Virus record (IMG/VR): IMGVR_UViG_3300019487_000070
Coordinates: 1 to 33,724 of that record
Direction: 5' to 3' (one strand)
Origin: a virus
Length of the DNA: 33,724 nucleotides
Shown here piece by piece: positions 6,657 to 33,724 of this stretch. The number at the start of each line of letters is the position of its first letter. The stretch's first letter is position 1. Below the pieces are notes generated by a model, which ran no database searches, was not told the DNA's origin, and worked only from the letters and a program-made list of their open reading frames with translations. Made by a program: the position numbers and the translations under genes.

Positions 6657-8987
6657 TCAGAGCCGGAACCCGCGGCGCTTCAGCTCGCCGGGGAGATCTT
6701 CCACGACCGCGCTCGCGAGCTCGCGGCCATTCGCGTGCAAGTGCACATGCAGGACGACGGGCGCGCTGTCTCGCCCGCCGCTGGCCGCCGCGTCGACGCT
6801 GGCCCGCCCGCCCATGCGCGCGACCTCCGCGCGCGACAACATGCGTTCGCCGGTCTGCGCGATGATCGGCACCTCGTCCATCCAGAGGCCCCGGTGCGCC
6901 CGCGGCCACGCGTCAATCCACCCGCCGCGATGCCGGTCGGTGATATTTCCAAACGCCTCCTGAATCCGGTGCACGTCCCCCGGATTGCGGCGGAGAAAGT
7001 CATCGATGTCGGCCTGCGTGGCGGCCCGGAAGCCCGATCCCCCAGGGCTGGCGCCGGCCGCACTGCTCGGCGAGGGCAGGCCGGGGAAGTTCGCGATGTC
7101 CCATCCGACCTTGATGGTGATCGGCTTCGCGATCTCGGCCTTGACCTCGTCGGCGAGGCTCCCGAGTGCGGTCAAGCCCGCGCCGGCGCGAGCCGTGGCG
7201 TCGACGAACGTCTCGCCAAAGGCCTGCGACGCCGGCGTGAGGCCCGTGCGCATGACTGCCTCGATCTCCTGGATCACGAGTCGCACGGCGTCGCCGCCCT
7301 GCTTCTCGGCCTTCCAGAGCCGGTCCATGATGGCCAGCGCCTCCTGCTCGGTGCGGCCCGCCGCAAGGTAGGCATCGCGCACGGCGATCACGCTCTGCTT
7401 CCAGCGCTCATTCCCGGCCTCGAGCCGCTGCGTGTCGGTGAGCATCTGCTCGAGTTGCTCGCGGAACTGTGCGGCGACCGTCCGCCCCTCCCGTTCGGTG
7501 GCGTCTGGACCGCCAAAGAGCCCAGTGAGTGCGCCCCAGATTTTTTTCGCGCCTGCGACAATCGCCCCGGAAAACTGGCTGAGGATCTCACCGACCACTG
7601 GGATCTGTCGCAGCAAATCGCCGACGAGGCGTGTCGCGAACGATTGCACCGCGCCGCTGACTCCGCCGCCCCCTTCAAAGGCCGCTTGGAAGATGCGATT
7701 CAGATCCGCAAGGGACGATGAGACGACATTCCCGAGTTGCGCAAATAGCCCTGATGTCTGCGCGACCGCGCCCTGGGTCGCCGCCACCATCCCCTGTCCC
7801 ATGCGCGTGAACCAGTCGAGCACGCCGCGCACCATGTCTGGCACGTACGATCGGCCGACGACCTGCTCGTACATGTCGCGGAAGAACCCGGTCACCGCCT
7901 CGACCTTCTTGCCGATCCAGTCCACGATCGCGGTAAATTTGTCGACGAGCCACGTCTTCACTCCCTCATAGACGCGCTGCGCGATCGTCGTGATCTGATC
8001 CCAGTTCTTCCACGCGAGATAGACGCCGGTGATGCCGGCGATGATGACGCCGGCCGGGAGGAGGAATGGGGCCAGCGCGCCCAGCGCCGCCGTGACACCG
8101 GCCAGCGCGGCAGGCGCGGCGGCGGCCAGTACGGGCATGAGCAGGCTGACGGCCGAGAAGATGCCCGTGAACCCGAGGGCGACGGGGCCGAGCACGCTGC
8201 CGAGAATGACCGCGGCGGAAATGACCGTTTGGGTCGACTGCGGCAGGGACGTAAACGCTTCGAGCAGCGGCAGAATCGCGCGCGCGAGGAGCGCGCCGGC
8301 CTGTTCTTTGACTTCCCCGTATTGATTGCCGAGTTGCTGCAGCCGGCCGCTGTACGTCTCGGCTTGCGCCTGCGCTTGCCCGCCGAATTTCTCGTTGATC
8401 GCCTCGAGGACGGCCGTCGCGCCGCCCGCCTTCAGCTTCGCCTCATCGATCACGATGCCGTAGCGCTTCAGGGTGCCGGTCTCGCCTTCGAACGCTTTGC
8501 CGACAAGCATTGTCGCCGTCCGCAGATCGATCCGCAGGCCGGAGGCCAGATTCGTGGCTGCTGAGAGGGCCGCCTCCATCTGGTTGGGCATCACATTGCC
8601 GACCTGAACCAGGAGCGCCTGCATCTCACTGACGAGCTCGTCCCCGAACACCGTCGTGCGTTGAAACTGGCTCGCCAGCTCGGCATACTGCGCGGCCAGC
8701 GCGGGCGTGAACGTGCCCTGCGCCTGGAGCGCCGTGTTCACACGGACAAGGGCATCTTCCTGGGCAGATGATTGCGACATGAGATCGCGAAGCTCATCCC
8801 CGGCTTTCTGAATGCCGATCGCCGCCGCGCCGGCGGAGGCCGCAAACGCCGCCCAGCGCTCCTGGAACAACTCGCTGGCGCTTTTCATCTGATCGCCGAG
8901 ACCAGCGACGGCCGCCCGCGCCTTGGCAAACTCCTCATCCGTGAGGTTTTTGGCCGTAATCCGAATGGCGATTTCGCGTTCGCTCAT
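6657..8987 (-). CDS. Tape measure protein
   Basis: The product, 776 residues from the ATG at 8987 (MSEREIAIRI), sets tail length and is injected with the DNA. A further ATG at 9047 lies inside the upstream chaperone frame and is unlikely to be used. Evidence: it is the longest tail gene, lies directly after the frameshifted chaperone, begins with an IRITAKNLTDEEFAK strand-helix, is helix-rich with Gln/Ala heptads (LQAQGTFTPALAAQYAELAS), and has a central hydrophobic block at about 255-330 (SAAVILGSVLGPVALGF, GVIIAGITGVYLAW) as in lambda-like tape measures. A PIIAQTGERMLSR motif near the C-terminus is frequent in this family. By the lambda ratio of residues to length, the tail would be roughly 115-120 nm; that figure is an inference. 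Confidence 0.93.
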   Translation of the reverse strand: MSEREIAIRITAKNLTDEEFAKARAAVAGLGDQMKSASELFQERWAAFAASAGAAAIGIQKAGDELRDLMSQSSAQEDALVRVNTALQAQGTFTPALAAQYAELASQFQRTTVFGDELVSEMQALLVQVGNVMPNQMEAALSAATNLASGLRIDLRTATMLVGKAFEGETGTLKRYGIVIDEAKLKAGGATAVLEAINEKFGGQAQAQAETYSGRLQQLGNQYGEVKEQAGALLARAILPLLEAFTSLPQSTQTVISAAVILGSVLGPVALGFTGIFSAVSLLMPVLAAAAPAALAGVTAALGALAPFLLPAGVIIAGITGVYLAWKNWDQITTIAQRVYEGVKTWLVDKFTAIVDWIGKKVEAVTGFFRDMYEQVVGRSYVPDMVRGVLDWFTRMGQGMVAATQGAVAQTSGLFAQLGNVVSSSLADLNRIFQAAFEGGGGVSGAVQSFATRLVGDLLRQIPVVGEILSQFSGAIVAGAKKIWGALTGLFGGPDATEREGRTVAAQFREQLEQMLTDTQRLEAGNERWKQSVIAVRDAYLAAGRTEQEALAIMDRLWKAEKQGGDAVRLVIQEIEAVMRTGLTPASQAFGETFVDATARAGAGLTALGSLADEVKAEIAKPITIKVGWDIANFPGLPSPSSAAGASPGGSGFRAATQADIDDFLRRNPGDVHRIQEAFGNITDRHRGGWIDAWPRAHRGLWMDEVPIIAQTGERMLSRAEVARMGGRASVDAAASGGRDSAPVVLHVHLHANGRELASAVVEDLPGELKRRGFRL

Positions 8988-8994
8988 CGCTGGT

Positions 8995-9923
8995 TTACCG
9001 CGGTTGCTCGGCCAACAACTGATTCGCCACGTCGCACACGTGCGCAAGCGCCTGCATCATTCTCGCGTCCTGATCGGCGAGTCCACCCGGCGCCGGCAGG
9101 GCCACCCGTCGCCATCGCGCTGCGCCGAATCCGGTGCTCTCCACGTCATGCGTCCACTCGAACCAGCGCAGCAGATCGTCGACGTCCGGTGTCAACAGGC
9201 GAACCGGGCATGTCGTCAGGACCTCACCGCGATCGCTAATCCAGACGGGTGTTCCTCGATCGACGCCGTCGCAACTCCGCTCGTAACAGAGCGCCCGTCG
9301 CTGACACTCAACGCAGGAGCGCCCGGTCTCACCCCAGGTGCTGCCTGATCCTCGAGTCCGGCGGAGGAAGTCTGAGAACCGGAGCCCAAGGGCGAGCCGT
9401 TTTTTGCGGCGGGGGACAGCGTGTTCTGCTCGAGGATGGCATCCATCAGGGCGCTGAGGACGCTGCGTCTGGCGCCGTAGAGCCGCACGATGTCTGCGCC
9501 AGCCGTGATCGCACGCGTCGTCTGGGTGGCGTCGTCGACCTCCTCGATCTGCCCAGGGACGACGGTCACGTACCGACTGATCGACTCCGCGAGAAAGGAC
9601 CGCGCGAAGATCTCCTCCTCGTCCATGAGACGCTCGTATGCGGCGCGCTGATCGTCGGTCATTTCGACGAGACGCCGCCGACGAATCTCTGCGGCGCTCA
9701 CGACAAACGCCTCACCGTGTGTCTCTTGTTCCGGCCCTGGCATTCGCATCGTGACGAGCCTCGCGGAATGCGGGTCCACGATGCGCTGAAAGCCAGCAGA
9801 AAAGGCACTCCACTGGTCGAGGGTGAGGCGCGTGATGCGGACGTTGATCGCGTAGCCGTCGATCGGCACCGTCGCCGGGTAGTAGCCGGCGGTCACTCGG
9901 AGCTTGGGTTGTGGTTGGTCCAT
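8995..9923 (-). CDS. Tail assembly chaperone, long product via -1 frameshift
   Basis: Translation from ATG 9923 reads 175 codons to the heptamer A AAA AAC (9405-9399). A -1 slip there continues for 134 codons to TAA at 8997-8995, giving about 309 residues, analogous to lambda gpGT. The shifted frame has no stop between 9399 and 8998 and reads like real protein: RLALGLRFSDFLRR, then a Cys cluster (SCVECQRRALCYERSC), PVWISDRGEVLTTCPVRLL, DDLLRWFEWTHD and a helical end. In contrast the zero frame after the slip site is low-complexity Ser/Gly/Ala. The gene lies between tail tube and tape measure, exactly where such chaperones lie. The distal part has only a TTG as an independent start, so frameshifting is the simplest explanation. 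Confidence 0.82.
9216..9923 (-). CDS. Tail assembly chaperone, short (zero-frame) product
   Basis: The unshifted product is 235 residues from ATG 9923 (MDQPQPKLRV), with a weak AGGT upstream; a TTG-initiated extension to 10022 is possible but looks non-coding. It contains a compact beta start (VTAGYYPATVPIDGYAINVRI), a helical domain (LTLDQWSAFSAGFQRIVD, DDQRAAYERLMDEEEIFARS) and a second helix pair (SRYVTVVPGQIEEVDDATQT, RRSVLSALMDAILEQN). These are typical of siphophage gpG-like chaperones that hold the tape measure before the tube polymerises. After residue 175 the tail is disordered and ends LAIAVRS. In known systems the short and long forms are made in a fixed ratio. Confidence 0.85.
   Translation of the reverse strand: MDQPQPKLRVTAGYYPATVPIDGYAINVRITRLTLDQWSAFSAGFQRIVDPHSARLVTMRMPGPEQETHGEAFVVSAAEIRRRRLVEMTDDQRAAYERLMDEEEIFARSFLAESISRYVTVVPGQIEEVDDATQTTRAITAGADIVRLYGARRSVLSALMDAILEQNTLSPAAKNGSPLGSGSQTSSAGLEDQAAPGVRPGAPALSVSDGRSVTSGVATASIEEHPSGLAIAVRS
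9399..9405 (-). promoter_or_regulatory. Programmed -1 ribosomal frameshift site (A AAA AAC)
   Basis: On the minus strand the chaperone codons GCA AAA AAC contain A AAA AAC in the exact X XXY YYZ register for tandem -1 slippage. The two frames on either side are both coding-like, and the shift joins them. About 20 bases downstream there is a possible 5-bp stem (TCCGG / CCGGA, loop about 17) and, closer, GCCC-TT-GGGC; neither is a strong stimulator. A AAA AAC is among the more slippery bacterial heptamers, so a strong structure may not be needed. Confidence 0.8.
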
Positions 9924-10096: not shown

Positions 10097-11248
10097 TTAC
10101 GCCAGCGCCAGCCGCACTTCGTCGTTGTTGCCATCGGCCGTCGCGAGCGCCGTGCCCGTCCACGACCAGGACACCGCCTCGTCGGGATCGTCAATCGCGG
10201 GCACGTCGAAATCCACCTTCGGGAGATAGAGCGCGATGATGTTGCCCTCGGTCCGCCCGGTCTGCTTGAGGATCGACACCGGGGTGCCGACGCGCGCGAG
10301 GTCGTAGAGCGTGGCCTGGTTCTCGACGAAGGTGGTCAGGCTGCACTTCACCTCGCGCTTGCCATCGCGATACGACTCGGTCGCCACCGAAACGCCGTAC
10401 TCCGAGTTCCGCGCTCGGAGGCTGTTGCTCAGCATCACCTCGCAGCGCTTGAACAGATACGCCGTGTTGTTGACCAGCAGCTCGCCGATGAGCCCGGAGG
10501 GCGGATTCCCGCCGACCGTGGTGAAGGCGCCTGGCTCGGCGGGCACATCCGTCGCCGTCTTGTCATCCGCCGCCTGCCCGCTCAAGGAGAACCGCGGCTC
10601 CTCGTTCCCGTCGAACGTCATCGTCAGCTCGTTCGCGCCGAGGCCGAGCAGCATCTCCTTGAAGTTCGCGAGATAGTGCGCGATGGCCAGCGACAGGCCC
10701 AGCGTGGTCGTGCACGAATAGGTCAGGCAGCCCTTGACCGATTCGCCATCCGCCATCGCGCTCGGCAACGCCGGCGCCCAGGTGACGCTGCTGCCGGCGA
10801 TCGCCGTAATCACGCGCACGTATTTCACGCTGTTGCGCGTGAGCAGAATGGCATCCCCGACCGCGAGCCCCGTGACGGAGGTGAAATCGTCCTGCGTCGT
10901 CGTGCCCGCCCCGGCCACGGCGATCGTGGTGCTGAGTGTGACGTTGCGCTTCGAGCCGAAGGCGCACTCGAAGAGCTCGTCGGCCTCGGGCAGGGTGTTC
11001 AGCACGCCAGATGGGCGGAGCACGGCCTCGAGACTGGAGAGCGCGGCCGTGCGGCGCCGGTCAAAGCGCGCAGTCACGCCGGCCGCCGCCGTCTTCTCGG
11101 GCGAGATCACCCGATTGAGCGGCTGAAAGGCTGGAATGAAGCTGATGTGCCGCAGCGCATCGGTCGCCGCAAACGTGACGGCGGGATCCGCATACGTGCC
11201 TTCTTTCTTGACGAACAGCTTCCCGGCGCTGCCGAGATTCAGAGCCAT
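10097..11248 (-). CDS. Major tail tube protein
   Basis: A 383-residue protein beginning MALNLGSAGKLFVKKEGTY, with GAGGGG upstream of ATG 11248; the start overlaps the previous stop as TAATG. The N-terminal pattern (G-x-L-x-x-K-x-E-x-x-Y) and a later SLAIAHYLANFKEMLLGLGAN ... LTMTFDGNEEP region are those of the large tail-tube proteins of siphoviruses. A central insertion (about 105-160, DDFTSVTGLAVGDAILLTR) resembles an added beta domain, which would be surface-exposed on the tube. It lies between the terminator/completion genes and the chaperone. It should be one of the most abundant virion proteins. Confidence 0.85.
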   Translation of the reverse strand: MALNLGSAGKLFVKKEGTYADPAVTFAATDALRHISFIPAFQPLNRVISPEKTAAAGVTARFDRRRTAALSSLEAVLRPSGVLNTLPEADELFECAFGSKRNVTLSTTIAVAGAGTTTQDDFTSVTGLAVGDAILLTRNSVKYVRVITAIAGSSVTWAPALPSAMADGESVKGCLTYSCTTTLGLSLAIAHYLANFKEMLLGLGANELTMTFDGNEEPRFSLSGQAADDKTATDVPAEPGAFTTVGGNPPSGLIGELLVNNTAYLFKRCEVMLSNSLRARNSEYGVSVATESYRDGKREVKCSLTTFVENQATLYDLARVGTPVSILKQTGRTEGNIIALYLPKVDFDVPAIDDPDEAVSWSWTGTALATADGNNDEVRLALA

Positions 11249-13650: not shown

Positions 13651-15183
13651 TCACGCGCCGGCGTTGGTCACCGCGGGGCGGAAATCGACCCCGGCGCACA
13701 CGAGGTCGTGGCGCACCTTCATCTCGGTGCCGTCGACGTTCCACCCGTCCTTCGTTTCGATCACGGGCTCGGCCGCGCCTTCGAGGAAGGCCATCTCGAA
13801 CGCGGGCGCGACGCTCGGATCCGCAAACAGGTACCGACGCGTCCCAGAGAGCCGGGCCGTCCCCACGATGCGCGCGAACAGCCCGCGCACCTTGTTCGGC
13901 TTCTGGAGCTTGTTGGCGGTATCGGGGTCGTACTGCGCGTCGTTGATCACCCGCGCATCCCCCAGGAGCTCCCGCGGGAGCAGCAACACCCACGGCTGAA
14001 TGTCGAGGAACTCGTTGCTGTTGACGTCCTTCTGTTTCGCCAGCAGGACCGCATCGGCGTCCAGCGCGTTGACCGCGAGCGCCGACCCCGTGCCGATGTT
14101 GTTGTGATCGGCGTGGAACAGGGACTTGGTGTCGTTCAGGGTCGGGCCGAGGTTGCTGTTCTTCGCGAGCTCGGCGTAGGCCGCGATCTCTTCCGACAGT
14201 CGGGCGGCGCGCCCCAGCATGGTGAGCAGCCGCATGAACACGCCCATGTCGTCGTTGACGATCATCTGGCGCGAGACGTTGATGATGTTGCCCTTCGTGG
14301 TGAGCGTGACGAGTTCCTTTTCGCCATCCAGGATCGCTTTGTTCCGGAACTCGCCGTTCTGGGTCAGCGCGTCGAGGCCGCCGAACATCCCGAAGCGGTA
14401 TCGGTTGTGGGCGCGGAAATCCGACACGGTGCCACGGGCGCACCACTGCGTCCAGGTGTCCGGCGTGATCGCGTACTGCGCCTGCAGGGTCTTGTGCATC
14501 ACGTTCTCGAGCAGCACGGCGAAATCGCTCGTCGACTGCGTGGCCCGATACGTAAAGGCCTGCGCGACGAGCGCCATCTTGTCGAGCCCGCGCGTCTTGA
14601 CGCCCCGGAGTTCGAGGCAGTGCTTGGCCAGCTCCAGCAGCGTCATGCCGCGGAACTCGCCGGGGTCGAACGTCGGCCGCGGCTCCTTTCGGCGCTCCGC
14701 CGCGCTGACGAGCACCTGCTCGACGTCGCCCTTGATCGCGAGCCACTGCGACGCGCCGCGAATCGCCTTCTCGATGGCATCCTCGCCCGGCACAATCGCC
14801 TGCGCCGGATCGGTGCGCGGCGGCTGTGTCTTCACGAGCTCGTCGATGACGAGGGCGCGGAAGGCCTCGATCGTCGTGCCATTCGTGATGTGCGCATCCG
14901 CGAGCGCGGTGGGGAGCTGCGCCGCGCGGGTCGCCTGCTGGATGCCGAGCACGCGCTGACGCTCCGCGGTGGCCGCGTCGGGTGGCGCGGGATCCTCGTC
15001 GTCCTCGTCATCCTCATCAGGCGTCTCGATGGCACGGATCTGGGTCTCCACGGCGGCGATCTCCGCCTTCTTCGCATCGAAGGGGGGGCGGGATGCGTCC
15101 GTGAACGTGCCGTCGGCCGGCGTGAGCGCGTGAAGCTGCCGCTGCAGCGTGGCGAGCTTGCGCTTGAGGGCCTTGAGATTCAT
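13651..15183 (-). CDS. Major capsid protein with N-terminal scaffold region
   Basis: A 510-residue protein with GGAG in the short spacer after the protease gene. Residues 1-45 form a basic coiled coil (ALKRKLATLQRQLHAL) and residues 54-70 an acidic linker (PDEDDEDDEDPAPP). A helical region follows to about 150, consistent with a scaffold or delta domain removed by the protease. From about 170 the sequence is capsid-like: GMTLLELAKHCLELRG, FAVLLENVMHKTLQ, FRAHNRYRFGMFGGLDALTQ, NIINVSRQMIVNDDMGVF and LFHADHNNIGTGSALAV. These resemble capsid proteins often fused to the prohead protease (Mu gpT-like). The C-terminus (VDFRPAVTNAGA) is typical. Confidence 0.88.
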   Translation of the reverse strand: MNLKALKRKLATLQRQLHALTPADGTFTDASRPPFDAKKAEIAAVETQIRAIETPDEDDEDDEDPAPPDAATAERQRVLGIQQATRAAQLPTALADAHITNGTTIEAFRALVIDELVKTQPPRTDPAQAIVPGEDAIEKAIRGASQWLAIKGDVEQVLVSAAERRKEPRPTFDPGEFRGMTLLELAKHCLELRGVKTRGLDKMALVAQAFTYRATQSTSDFAVLLENVMHKTLQAQYAITPDTWTQWCARGTVSDFRAHNRYRFGMFGGLDALTQNGEFRNKAILDGEKELVTLTTKGNIINVSRQMIVNDDMGVFMRLLTMLGRAARLSEEIAAYAELAKNSNLGPTLNDTKSLFHADHNNIGTGSALAVNALDADAVLLAKQKDVNSNEFLDIQPWVLLLPRELLGDARVINDAQYDPDTANKLQKPNKVRGLFARIVGTARLSGTRRYLFADPSVAPAFEMAFLEGAAEPVIETKDGWNVDGTEMKVRHDLVCAGVDFRPAVTNAGA

Positions 15184-15192
15184 GACTACTCC

Positions 15193-15828
15193 TTACAGGC
15201 TGTGGGCGTACGCGAATCGCAGCCGATCGGCATCGGCGAGCTCGAGCGGCGATGCGGCGGCGGCGGTGACGATCTCGCAGGGATTCGTGCTGAGTGCCTG
15301 CGCGCTGCGGAACCCGGCGGCGGCGTCTTCGCCCGCCGGCACGACGGAGACCTCGAACGGTTCCCAGTCCACGGCGCGCCGCGTCGGGATCTTGTTGGTG
15401 ACGTCTTCTGTCTTTTCGAACTTGTAGACGCGGTAGCCGACGCTGATGTTTTGAATGATGCCGTCGCGCACCTTGCGGAAGATCGCGTCGGCGGCGGGGT
15501 CATCCTCCGGCTTGGCAAACCGGACGCGCGCGGTGCCGTGCTTGCCATCGACGCGCGCGGAACCGCTTTCCACGACGCCGATCACCGCGCGGAGCTCGAA
15601 CAGGTTGTGCGTGTCGAGGAGCGGCGCGCCGTCATTCAGCCGCGCCAGGCGCACGTGCTTCGGGTCGAGCGAGAGTTCTTCCCAGAACGGTTCCCAGAAG
15701 CCGCGCAGGACCTTCGCGCCGGTCGACCAGATGACGTCGACCGTCCGCTTCTCGGCGTTGACGGTGGACGGCGCGAACGCCGCACGCAGCGTCAGCGGAG
15801 GAAGGTCGCGAGTCACGACCTGAGGCAT
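15193..15828 (-). CDS. HK97-family prohead protease (U35/S78-like)
   Basis: A 211-residue protein from ATG 15828; a GTG one codon earlier is possible. Key motifs are the catalytic His in LLDTHNLFELRAVIG (about H74) and the catalytic Ser in GIIQNISVGYRVYKF (about S129), the His/Ser pair of herpesvirus-assemblin-like prohead proteases. A downstream acidic residue in WEPFEVSVVPAGEDAAA completes the family pattern. It cleaves scaffold and capsid N-termini during head maturation. The gene is followed after nine bases (TAA GGAGTAGTC ATG) by the capsid gene. In many related phages the two are one fused protein; here they are separate. Confidence 0.9.
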   Translation of the reverse strand: MPQVVTRDLPPLTLRAAFAPSTVNAEKRTVDVIWSTGAKVLRGFWEPFWEELSLDPKHVRLARLNDGAPLLDTHNLFELRAVIGVVESGSARVDGKHGTARVRFAKPEDDPAADAIFRKVRDGIIQNISVGYRVYKFEKTEDVTNKIPTRRAVDWEPFEVSVVPAGEDAAAGFRSAQALSTNPCEIVTAAAASPLELADADRLRFAYAHSL

Positions 15829-15847
15829 CACCGCCAGCGTGCGTCAC

Positions 15848-23903: not shown

Positions 23904-24143
23904 TCACTGTTCTAGCGTGACCACGGTTTTCGGTAGTAGGGCGTGCGCGCCGCGCCGGAGCACACGCGTGCGCCCGGCCAGTCGCGTGTCTGTCAATGCC
24001 ACCACCCGGTACTTCGTCGGCGTCTCACCAATGATCCCTATACGCTGACGGGTGACGCCAGCCCACCCGTCTAACGCGAAGGATCCGTATCGAATCGGTT
24101 CGCCGCACCGTACGTCTGGCGTCGTCCGCGCTTGCTCACTCAT
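23904..24143 (-). CDS. Small SH3/KOW-like protein
   Basis: A 79-residue protein overlapping the upstream stop as ATGA. It reads as a small beta barrel: RYGSFALDGWAGVTRQRIGI, IGETPTKYRVVALTDTRLAG, RTRVLRRGAHALLPKTVVTL. The order beta-GETPT-beta-basic-beta-LLPK is common in short phage proteins thought to bind nucleic acid or protein. It shares IGETPT with the gene at 22918-23127. Function unknown. Confidence 0.65.
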   Translation of the reverse strand: MSEQARTTPDVRCGEPIRYGSFALDGWAGVTRQRIGIIGETPTKYRVVALTDTRLAGRTRVLRRGAHALLPKTVVTLEQ

Positions 24144-33484: not shown

Positions 33485-33724
33485 ACTCTCCTCCTCCGCT
33501 GTTGGCCGAATTCGCACTGTAGCGCGTCGACGATGACGTCACTACACTCGCCAGCAGCAAACAGCGCGGCAGCGCGGTCCACGTATTGACGGAGCAACGG
33601 CAAGCCGGCGCGACGTACGGCGGCTTTCGCCCAGGCGCGCTTGCGAGCGGCCGACAGCCGCGCCCGCACCTCGGGGTTCGCCCAGGCGCGCTTGCTCGCG
33701 GCCGACAGCCGCGCCCGCACCTCG
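33481..33724 (-). CDS. Repeat-containing early protein (5' part missing)
   Basis: The frame runs off the right edge and ends by overlapping the HTH gene (ATGA). The visible N-terminal part repeats a 17-residue unit (RARLSAASKRAWANPEV, RARLSAARKRAWAKAAV). The unit resembles NUMOD3-like repeats found in homing-type nucleases or DNA-binding phage proteins. The C-terminus (LPLLRQYVDRAAALFAAGEC, SDVIVDALQCEFG) is helical. At least two repeat copies are encoded by 51-bp near-perfect tandem DNA repeats. Number of copies and the start are unknown. Confidence 0.65.
   Translation of the reverse strand, partial: EVRARLSAASKRAWANPEVRARLSAARKRAWAKAAVRRAGLPLLRQYVDRAAALFAAGECSDVIVDALQCEFGQQRRRRV
33626..33724. 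repeat. 51-bp tandem repeat (at least two copies, runs off the edge)
   Basis: Copy 1 at 33626-33676 and copy 2 from 33677 to the edge begin ttcgcccaggcgcgcttg and differ at only two bases over 48. The unit encodes 17 residues. Near identity suggests recent expansion or gene conversion. Confidence 0.8.

Follow-up and report, generated by a model that had tools for sequence, protein, structure and literature searches.

The model in which a tail assembly chaperone gene gives rise to a short G product and to a frameshifted GT product has been established for phage lambda and for other phages (PMC5009743; PMC4493119). In lambda, a -1 shift takes place on the heptamer G_GGA_AAG shortly before the first frame ends, the distal domain is made as a fusion, and the G/T genes are located between the genes of the tube and the tape measure proteins (PMC5009743). 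The ratio of the two products is critical, with G binding the tape measure protein and T binding the tube protein (PMC5009743, PMC4493119). The similarity of T domains between phages has been documented to be low (PMC5009743). The heptamer AAAAAAC was described at the same gene position in gp93/gp94 of phiCbK (PMC3556154), in the sequence of which we also observed it, and it was proposed at this position for gp12/gp13 of Acinetobacter phage Loki (PMC5313236). Both the mechanism and the presence of an AAAAAAC site in tail chaperones are already known (PMC3556154, PMC5313236, PMC5009743).

The DNA analyzed here comprises the 33,724 bases of a virus record and has a GC content of 67.6%; its whole length is referred to below as the window. 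The data suggest that the tail assembly chaperone gene of this long-tailed phage is very probably expressed by a programmed -1 ribosomal frameshift of the lambda gpG/gpGT type. The positions of the relevant features are collected in Table 1.

Table 1. Features of the tail assembly chaperone locus in the window
Feature	Position	Strand	Remarks
Major tail tube protein gene	10097..11248	-	Pfam PF18906 Phage_tube_2 E=1.1e-8; PHROG 290 tail protein E=1.8e-11; neighbor upstream
0-frame ORF, G-like tail assembly chaperone, 235 aa	9216..9923	-	ATG at 9923, TGA 9218-9216
Slippery heptamer A AAA AAC, predicted -1 frameshift site	9399..9405	-	in register, single in window, conserved
-1-frame ORF, T-like distal domain, 136 codons plus stop	8995..9405	-	ends with TAA 8997-8995
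Cys4 motif, -1 frame	9208..9315	-	Cys codons 9315-9313, 9306-9304, 9273-9271, 9210-9208 (Pro next)
Tail tape measure protein gene	6657..8987	-	PHROG 1272 E=4.2e-17 and others; neighbor downstream

The initial annotation had placed the two frames between tube and tape measure genes, as in lambda, and had read the heptamer as being in register for -1 slippage. Both statements were borne out, the former by the Phage_tube_2 and tape measure matches on the two sides of the locus, and the latter by the 0 frame from the ATG at 9923, which reads ...CTG TCC CCC GCC GCA AAA AAC GGC... and corresponds to X XXY YYZ. The first 174 residues of the 0-frame ORF form a conserved G-like domain, while its last ~61 codons are an unconserved tail. 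The Ser/Gly-rich character of the 0 frame after the heptamer, and its end at 9216, also agree with the earlier description, with a tail of about 60 codons rich in Ser, Gly, Pro, and Ala. The -1 frame, for which 134 open codons had been given, has 136 when both lysines of the heptamer are counted. As had been claimed, the distal part would require a TTG start if no shift occurred, because the first in-frame start codon of the -1 frame is a TTG located 210 nt past the heptamer, which in the window falls beyond the conserved Cys motif. The T-like distal domain is predicted to be made solely as part of a 309-aa protein in which it is fused to the G-like domain. The tape measure ATG is located 7 nt past the -1-frame stop.

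In the proposed mechanism, the majority of ribosomes would translate the 0 frame through to its stop and produce the short G-like chaperone, while a minority would step back by one base on A AAA AAC, with the P-site and A-site tRNAs re-pairing to AAA AAA, and would end at 8995 with the 309-residue G-T fusion. By analogy to lambda, the G part would coat the tape measure protein, the T part would recruit the tail tube protein, and the ratio of G to G-T would govern tail assembly. The sequences themselves show the conserved heptamer with its register, the change of coding to the -1 frame, the gene order, and the homology of the distal domain to -1-frame domains of cultured phages, whereas a ribosomal slip, its efficiency, an activity of the products as chaperones, and possible metal binding by the Cys4 motif are inferred.

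The sequence AAAAAAC occurs once in the whole 33.7 kb of the window. Eight further genes for structural proteins contain in-register heptamers of the C/G type only, and none of the A type. Given the codon usage of the window, an in-register heptamer of this kind would be expected at a rate of about 8e-6 for each codon, or 5e-4 for a stretch of 60 codons.

Six independent relatives were obtained by searching viral contigs (L002/L003, L014, L010, L020, L021, and L022). The near-identical contigs L002 and L003 were scored as one relative, and the Cys-region patterns used in part of these searches do not contain the heptamer. No match was obtained when the chaperone ORF of the window and the closest distal domain were compared by tblastn with 50,697 phage records, and scans of genome contigs found no relative. 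In all seven independent loci, including the window, the 0 frame contains xxA AAA AA(C/A), that is A AAA AAC or A AAA AAA. The xxA codon preceding AAA encodes A, L, E, A, R, Q, and A across the seven loci. In the genes of the window, codons ending with A are rare (196/3740, about 5%), and lysine is mostly encoded by AAG (AAA:AAG of 23:94, AAG being 94/117). The fact that xxA is constant while the encoded residue varies, against the rarity of A-ending codons and the AAG bias, points to selection on the nucleotide rather than the residue level.

The -1 frame of the window, L002, L014, L010, L020, and L022 contains no ATG, GTG, or TTG within 150 nt after the heptamer, and that of L021 has a single TTG at +9. 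Conservation of the protein encoded in the -1 frame starts right at the heptamer (K-K-[RS]-L), and in L014 and L020 this frame opens just 6 nt ahead of it. The -1-frame stop adjoins the tape measure start in L002, L014, and L022, as in the window. Two further contigs reached via the tail hub protein, L015 and L016, were set aside; the chaperone-like ORFs that they contain show no sequence relationship and have a different frame of overlap. The overlap in L016, a distant phage, consists of two ORFs ahead of the tape measure gene (L016:2907-3672), whose frames are offset by +1 (or -2) close to GGGAAAG, and may reflect a different type of chaperone frameshift.

No unusually stable RNA structure was detected downstream of the heptamer (z-scores from -0.7 to +2.0), and no SD-like stimulator was present upstream in the window or L002. 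SD-like sequences are present in L014, L010, L021, and L022, and no SD-like element is conserved across the relatives. As neither a stable downstream structure nor an SD-like stimulator was found in the window, the efficiency of frameshifting is uncertain and may be low, which would be in keeping with the low level required in the lambda system. In E. coli, A_AAA_AAC and A_AAA_AAA shift less readily than A_AAA_AAG (PMC5009743).

The expectation of the initial annotation that purifying selection would act on the -1 frame after 9399 was supported by substitution counts in the overlap and by codon periodicity and protein similarity, both of which change over to the -1 frame past the heptamer. Upstream of the heptamer, the differences between the window and L002 favor the third position of 0-frame codons (52/45/97). 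In the overlap, the differences counted by -1-frame codon position are 9/10/24 (p=0.007), where the third positions of the -1 frame are the second positions of the 0 frame. In the overlap, synonymous and nonsynonymous codon changes between the two loci are equally frequent in the -1 frame (16:16), while the nonsynonymous ones prevail in the 0 frame (4:28) and in the +1 frame (4:26). The distal -1 frames of the window and L002 are 65% identical. When all pairs of loci were compared, the mean BLOSUM62 score was 2.72 in the -1 frame, 0.88 in the 0 frame, and 0.96 in the +1 frame, these pairs being non-independent. The 0 frame past the heptamer is thus conserved no better than the unused +1 frame, and for this reason its 60-codon tail looks like an unconstrained overlap with no conserved domain. 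The distal domain, which is selected at the protein level in the -1 frame and has no start of its own, agrees in this respect with the gpG/gpGT systems.

The metagenomic group could be connected with cultured phages by its distal domain. A tblastn search with the distal domain of L022 identified Agrobacterium phage JP1 (E=6e-5), in which the matching region is located between the tube and tape measure genes. The search with the JP1 distal domain then led to Rhizobium phages L338C, P11VFA, RHph_I4, and RHph_TM16, and to Rhodobacter phages RcTiptonus and kin, and RcZahn; the match to Alteromonas phage P24 was weak (E=0.8), while its position, heptamer, and motifs back P24. The seven cultured phages examined were JP1, L338C, RHph_I4, RHph_TM16, RcTiptonus, RcZahn, and P24. 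All seven contain a homologous Cys4 distal domain with an in-register heptamer before the tape measure gene, which is AAAAAAC in JP1, RcZahn, TM16, and P24, AAAAAAG in RcTiptonus, and GGGAAAC in L338C and I4. They differ from the window in their varied heptamers, in G-like domains that are not detectably related, and in shorter 0-frame remainders, as the 0-frame stop is located 10-91 nt from the heptamer start. The order of tube, G/T, and tape measure genes is common to the window, L003, L014, L022, JP1, and RcTiptonus. An in-register slippery heptamer was thus present in all homologues checked (6/6 metagenomic relatives and 7/7 cultured phages), and none was found in which the heptamer was destroyed with both frames intact.

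The relationship of the distal domains was also seen with a profile built only from the cultured phages, for which the six best of 1401 six-frame ORFs were the -1 ORFs of L022, L003, L014, the window, L020, and L021, with E=3.6e-7 for the -1 ORF of the window among these 1401 ORFs. Profile-profile comparison of the distal domains gave 97.1% probability and E=7e-11, and the same kind of comparison detected no sequence relation between the upstream G-like domains of the window group and of the cultured phages. In RcZahn, A AAA AAC is in register at L030:1501-1507 (MW677529.1, about 23927-23933), and the -1 frame, which includes the Cys4 domain, opens 3 nt ahead of the heptamer and extends for 139 codons. 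Together with the 6-nt distance in L014 and L020, this pins the entry point into the distal frame. A candidate from Synechococcus phage MinM1 (L025:83-89) contains AAAAAAC followed by a frame that reads KKLIAAL and has a G-G-L-N-D-Q-P motif like that of the family, with no cysteines. As its match was marginal (E=0.1), the Cys motif was missing, and the gene was cut by the record end, MinM1 was not accepted as a family member and was excluded from every count.

The same fusion protein could also arise by transcriptional slippage, if RNA polymerase lengthened the A6-A8 run by one A and the changed transcript were translated straight into the distal frame. A pure A run of 6-8 is indeed the feature conserved in the metagenomic loci, and slippage on A/T runs is known in bacteria (cited in PMC3711429). 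We consider this explanation very unlikely, because the run in the window and in L002 is just A6 followed by C, because it always spans the third base of a 0-frame codon, which is the register needed for tandem tRNA slippage and not for slippage of the polymerase, and because related phages use GGGAAAC, with no homopolymer run, for the same domain.

A still less probable explanation is that the distal domain is a separate gene, which would be translated from its own start or by reinitiation past the 0-frame stop, without a fusion. It is annotated in this manner in several GenBank records (e.g. JP1_032, RCTIPTONUS_43, and RCZAHN_28), and a start codon is found 18-36 nt past the heptamer in RHph_I4, RcZahn, and TM16, with that of RcZahn overlapping the 0-frame stop. 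However, the earliest start in the window lies, as noted above, beyond the conserved Cys motif, and conservation has by then already begun, at the heptamer. The sequence KKLRLGV, which precedes the annotated ATG of RcZahn, is identical in TM16, while TM16 has Ala at the position of the annotated Met of RcZahn. A separate gene would also leave the conserved heptamer unexplained. In the records of JP1, RcTiptonus, and L338C (L024, L027, L028, L032 with P24), the distal frame is a separate gene which starts past much of the Cys region, and in the record of P24 it is unannotated. Finally, although homopolymer runs are error-prone, a sequencing error or a decayed gene, with the two frames being really one and the A run an assembly artefact, is extremely improbable, as the same frame arrangement is shared by seven independent loci, which come from different metagenomes, and by cultured phages with complete genomes, one group of which has GGGAAAC and not an A run.

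The programmed -1 frameshift would append to the G-like domain a distal domain with distinctive features. All 13 full-length distal domains (13/13) contain C-x2-C-x(5-10)-C-...-C-P, a pattern found in 0.035% of shuffled sequences, as well as a G-G/S-x3-Q motif further along. The Cys4 T-domain family is defined in this analysis by these motifs, both of which are present in the window in the -1-frame domain after the slippery site. The Cys4 motif suggests a putative zinc or other metal site. This is different from the T domain of lambda, which has no Cys4 motif and no cysteine at all, and from the distal domain of phiCbK, which also lacks the motif. The window differs from lambda as well in its heptamer (A AAA AAC versus G_GGA_AAG) and in the length of the 0-frame tail past the site (about 60 versus about 6 codons), so that the heptamer is farther from the 0-frame stop than in lambda. 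No model in Pfam or PHROGs matched any distal-domain member tested, and no significant hit was obtained when the distal domain was compared with NCBIfam and with the sequences in PDB. An AlphaFold model made for the T-like domain with a four-sequence alignment was unusable (pLDDT 44.7). The chances appear evenly balanced that the distal domains form a previously undefined zinc-binding Cys4 T family, made only as frameshift products, which has moved among phages whose hosts are Alphaproteobacteria, Gammaproteobacteria, or unknown, with G domains that were swapped or diverged beyond recognition, and in which tube recruitment would be metal-stabilised, unlike in lambda.

The AlphaFold model of the G-like domain was fair (pLDDT 76.6). 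A Foldseek search of viral structures (BFVD) with this model returned no significant match; its weak matches (prob up to 0.97, E at least 0.02) include several named tail assembly chaperones, that of Loki among them, the best of those named having E=0.04. The PDB fold search also gave no significant match, with HK97 gp13 (PDB 2ob9), which has the same role by position, at rank 17 (E=2.9, TM 0.16-0.23). At the sequence level, searches of Pfam, PHROGs, and PDB linked the G-like domain to none of the known chaperone families with significance, and lambda G scored only 5.5 bits against the G-like profile. As neither the structural nor the sequence matches are significant, the identity of the G-like domain as a chaperone follows mainly from its position and the frameshift architecture.

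Elsewhere in the window, the product of the capsid gene (13651-15183, minus strand) shares about 56% identity with the capsids of the Bordetella phages PBb001 and PY223, and a separate Peptidase_S78 prohead protease is encoded upstream of it on the minus strand (15193-15831). In the phage collection, nothing matched the tube protein, and the matches to the tape measure protein were weak. The combination of a Bordetella-like capsid with an unmatched tube and a weakly matched tape measure protein indicates that the genome is mosaic. At the end of the record (33626-33724), a 51-bp tandem repeat of 1.9 copies with 95% matches is located within a minus-strand ORF running off the end.

What is new here is the window member, the Cys4 T-domain family and the connection that it makes with cultured phages, and the site in RcZahn. 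Comparative evidence by itself supports the frameshift in a phage group of which no cultured member was found here. This group is now tied to cultured phages whose fusion is missed, the distal frame being given as a separate hypothetical protein, often with a late start. The in-register A AAA AAC of RcZahn bears on the statement of a 2021 paper that the frameshift which tail assembly chaperone genes usually have was not clearly evident in this phage (PMC8601537). The Cys4 domain provides a signature by which chaperones of a class outside Pfam and PHROGs can be searched for, and RcZahn, RcTiptonus, and JP1 are cultured systems in which the predicted frameshift is open to direct test.
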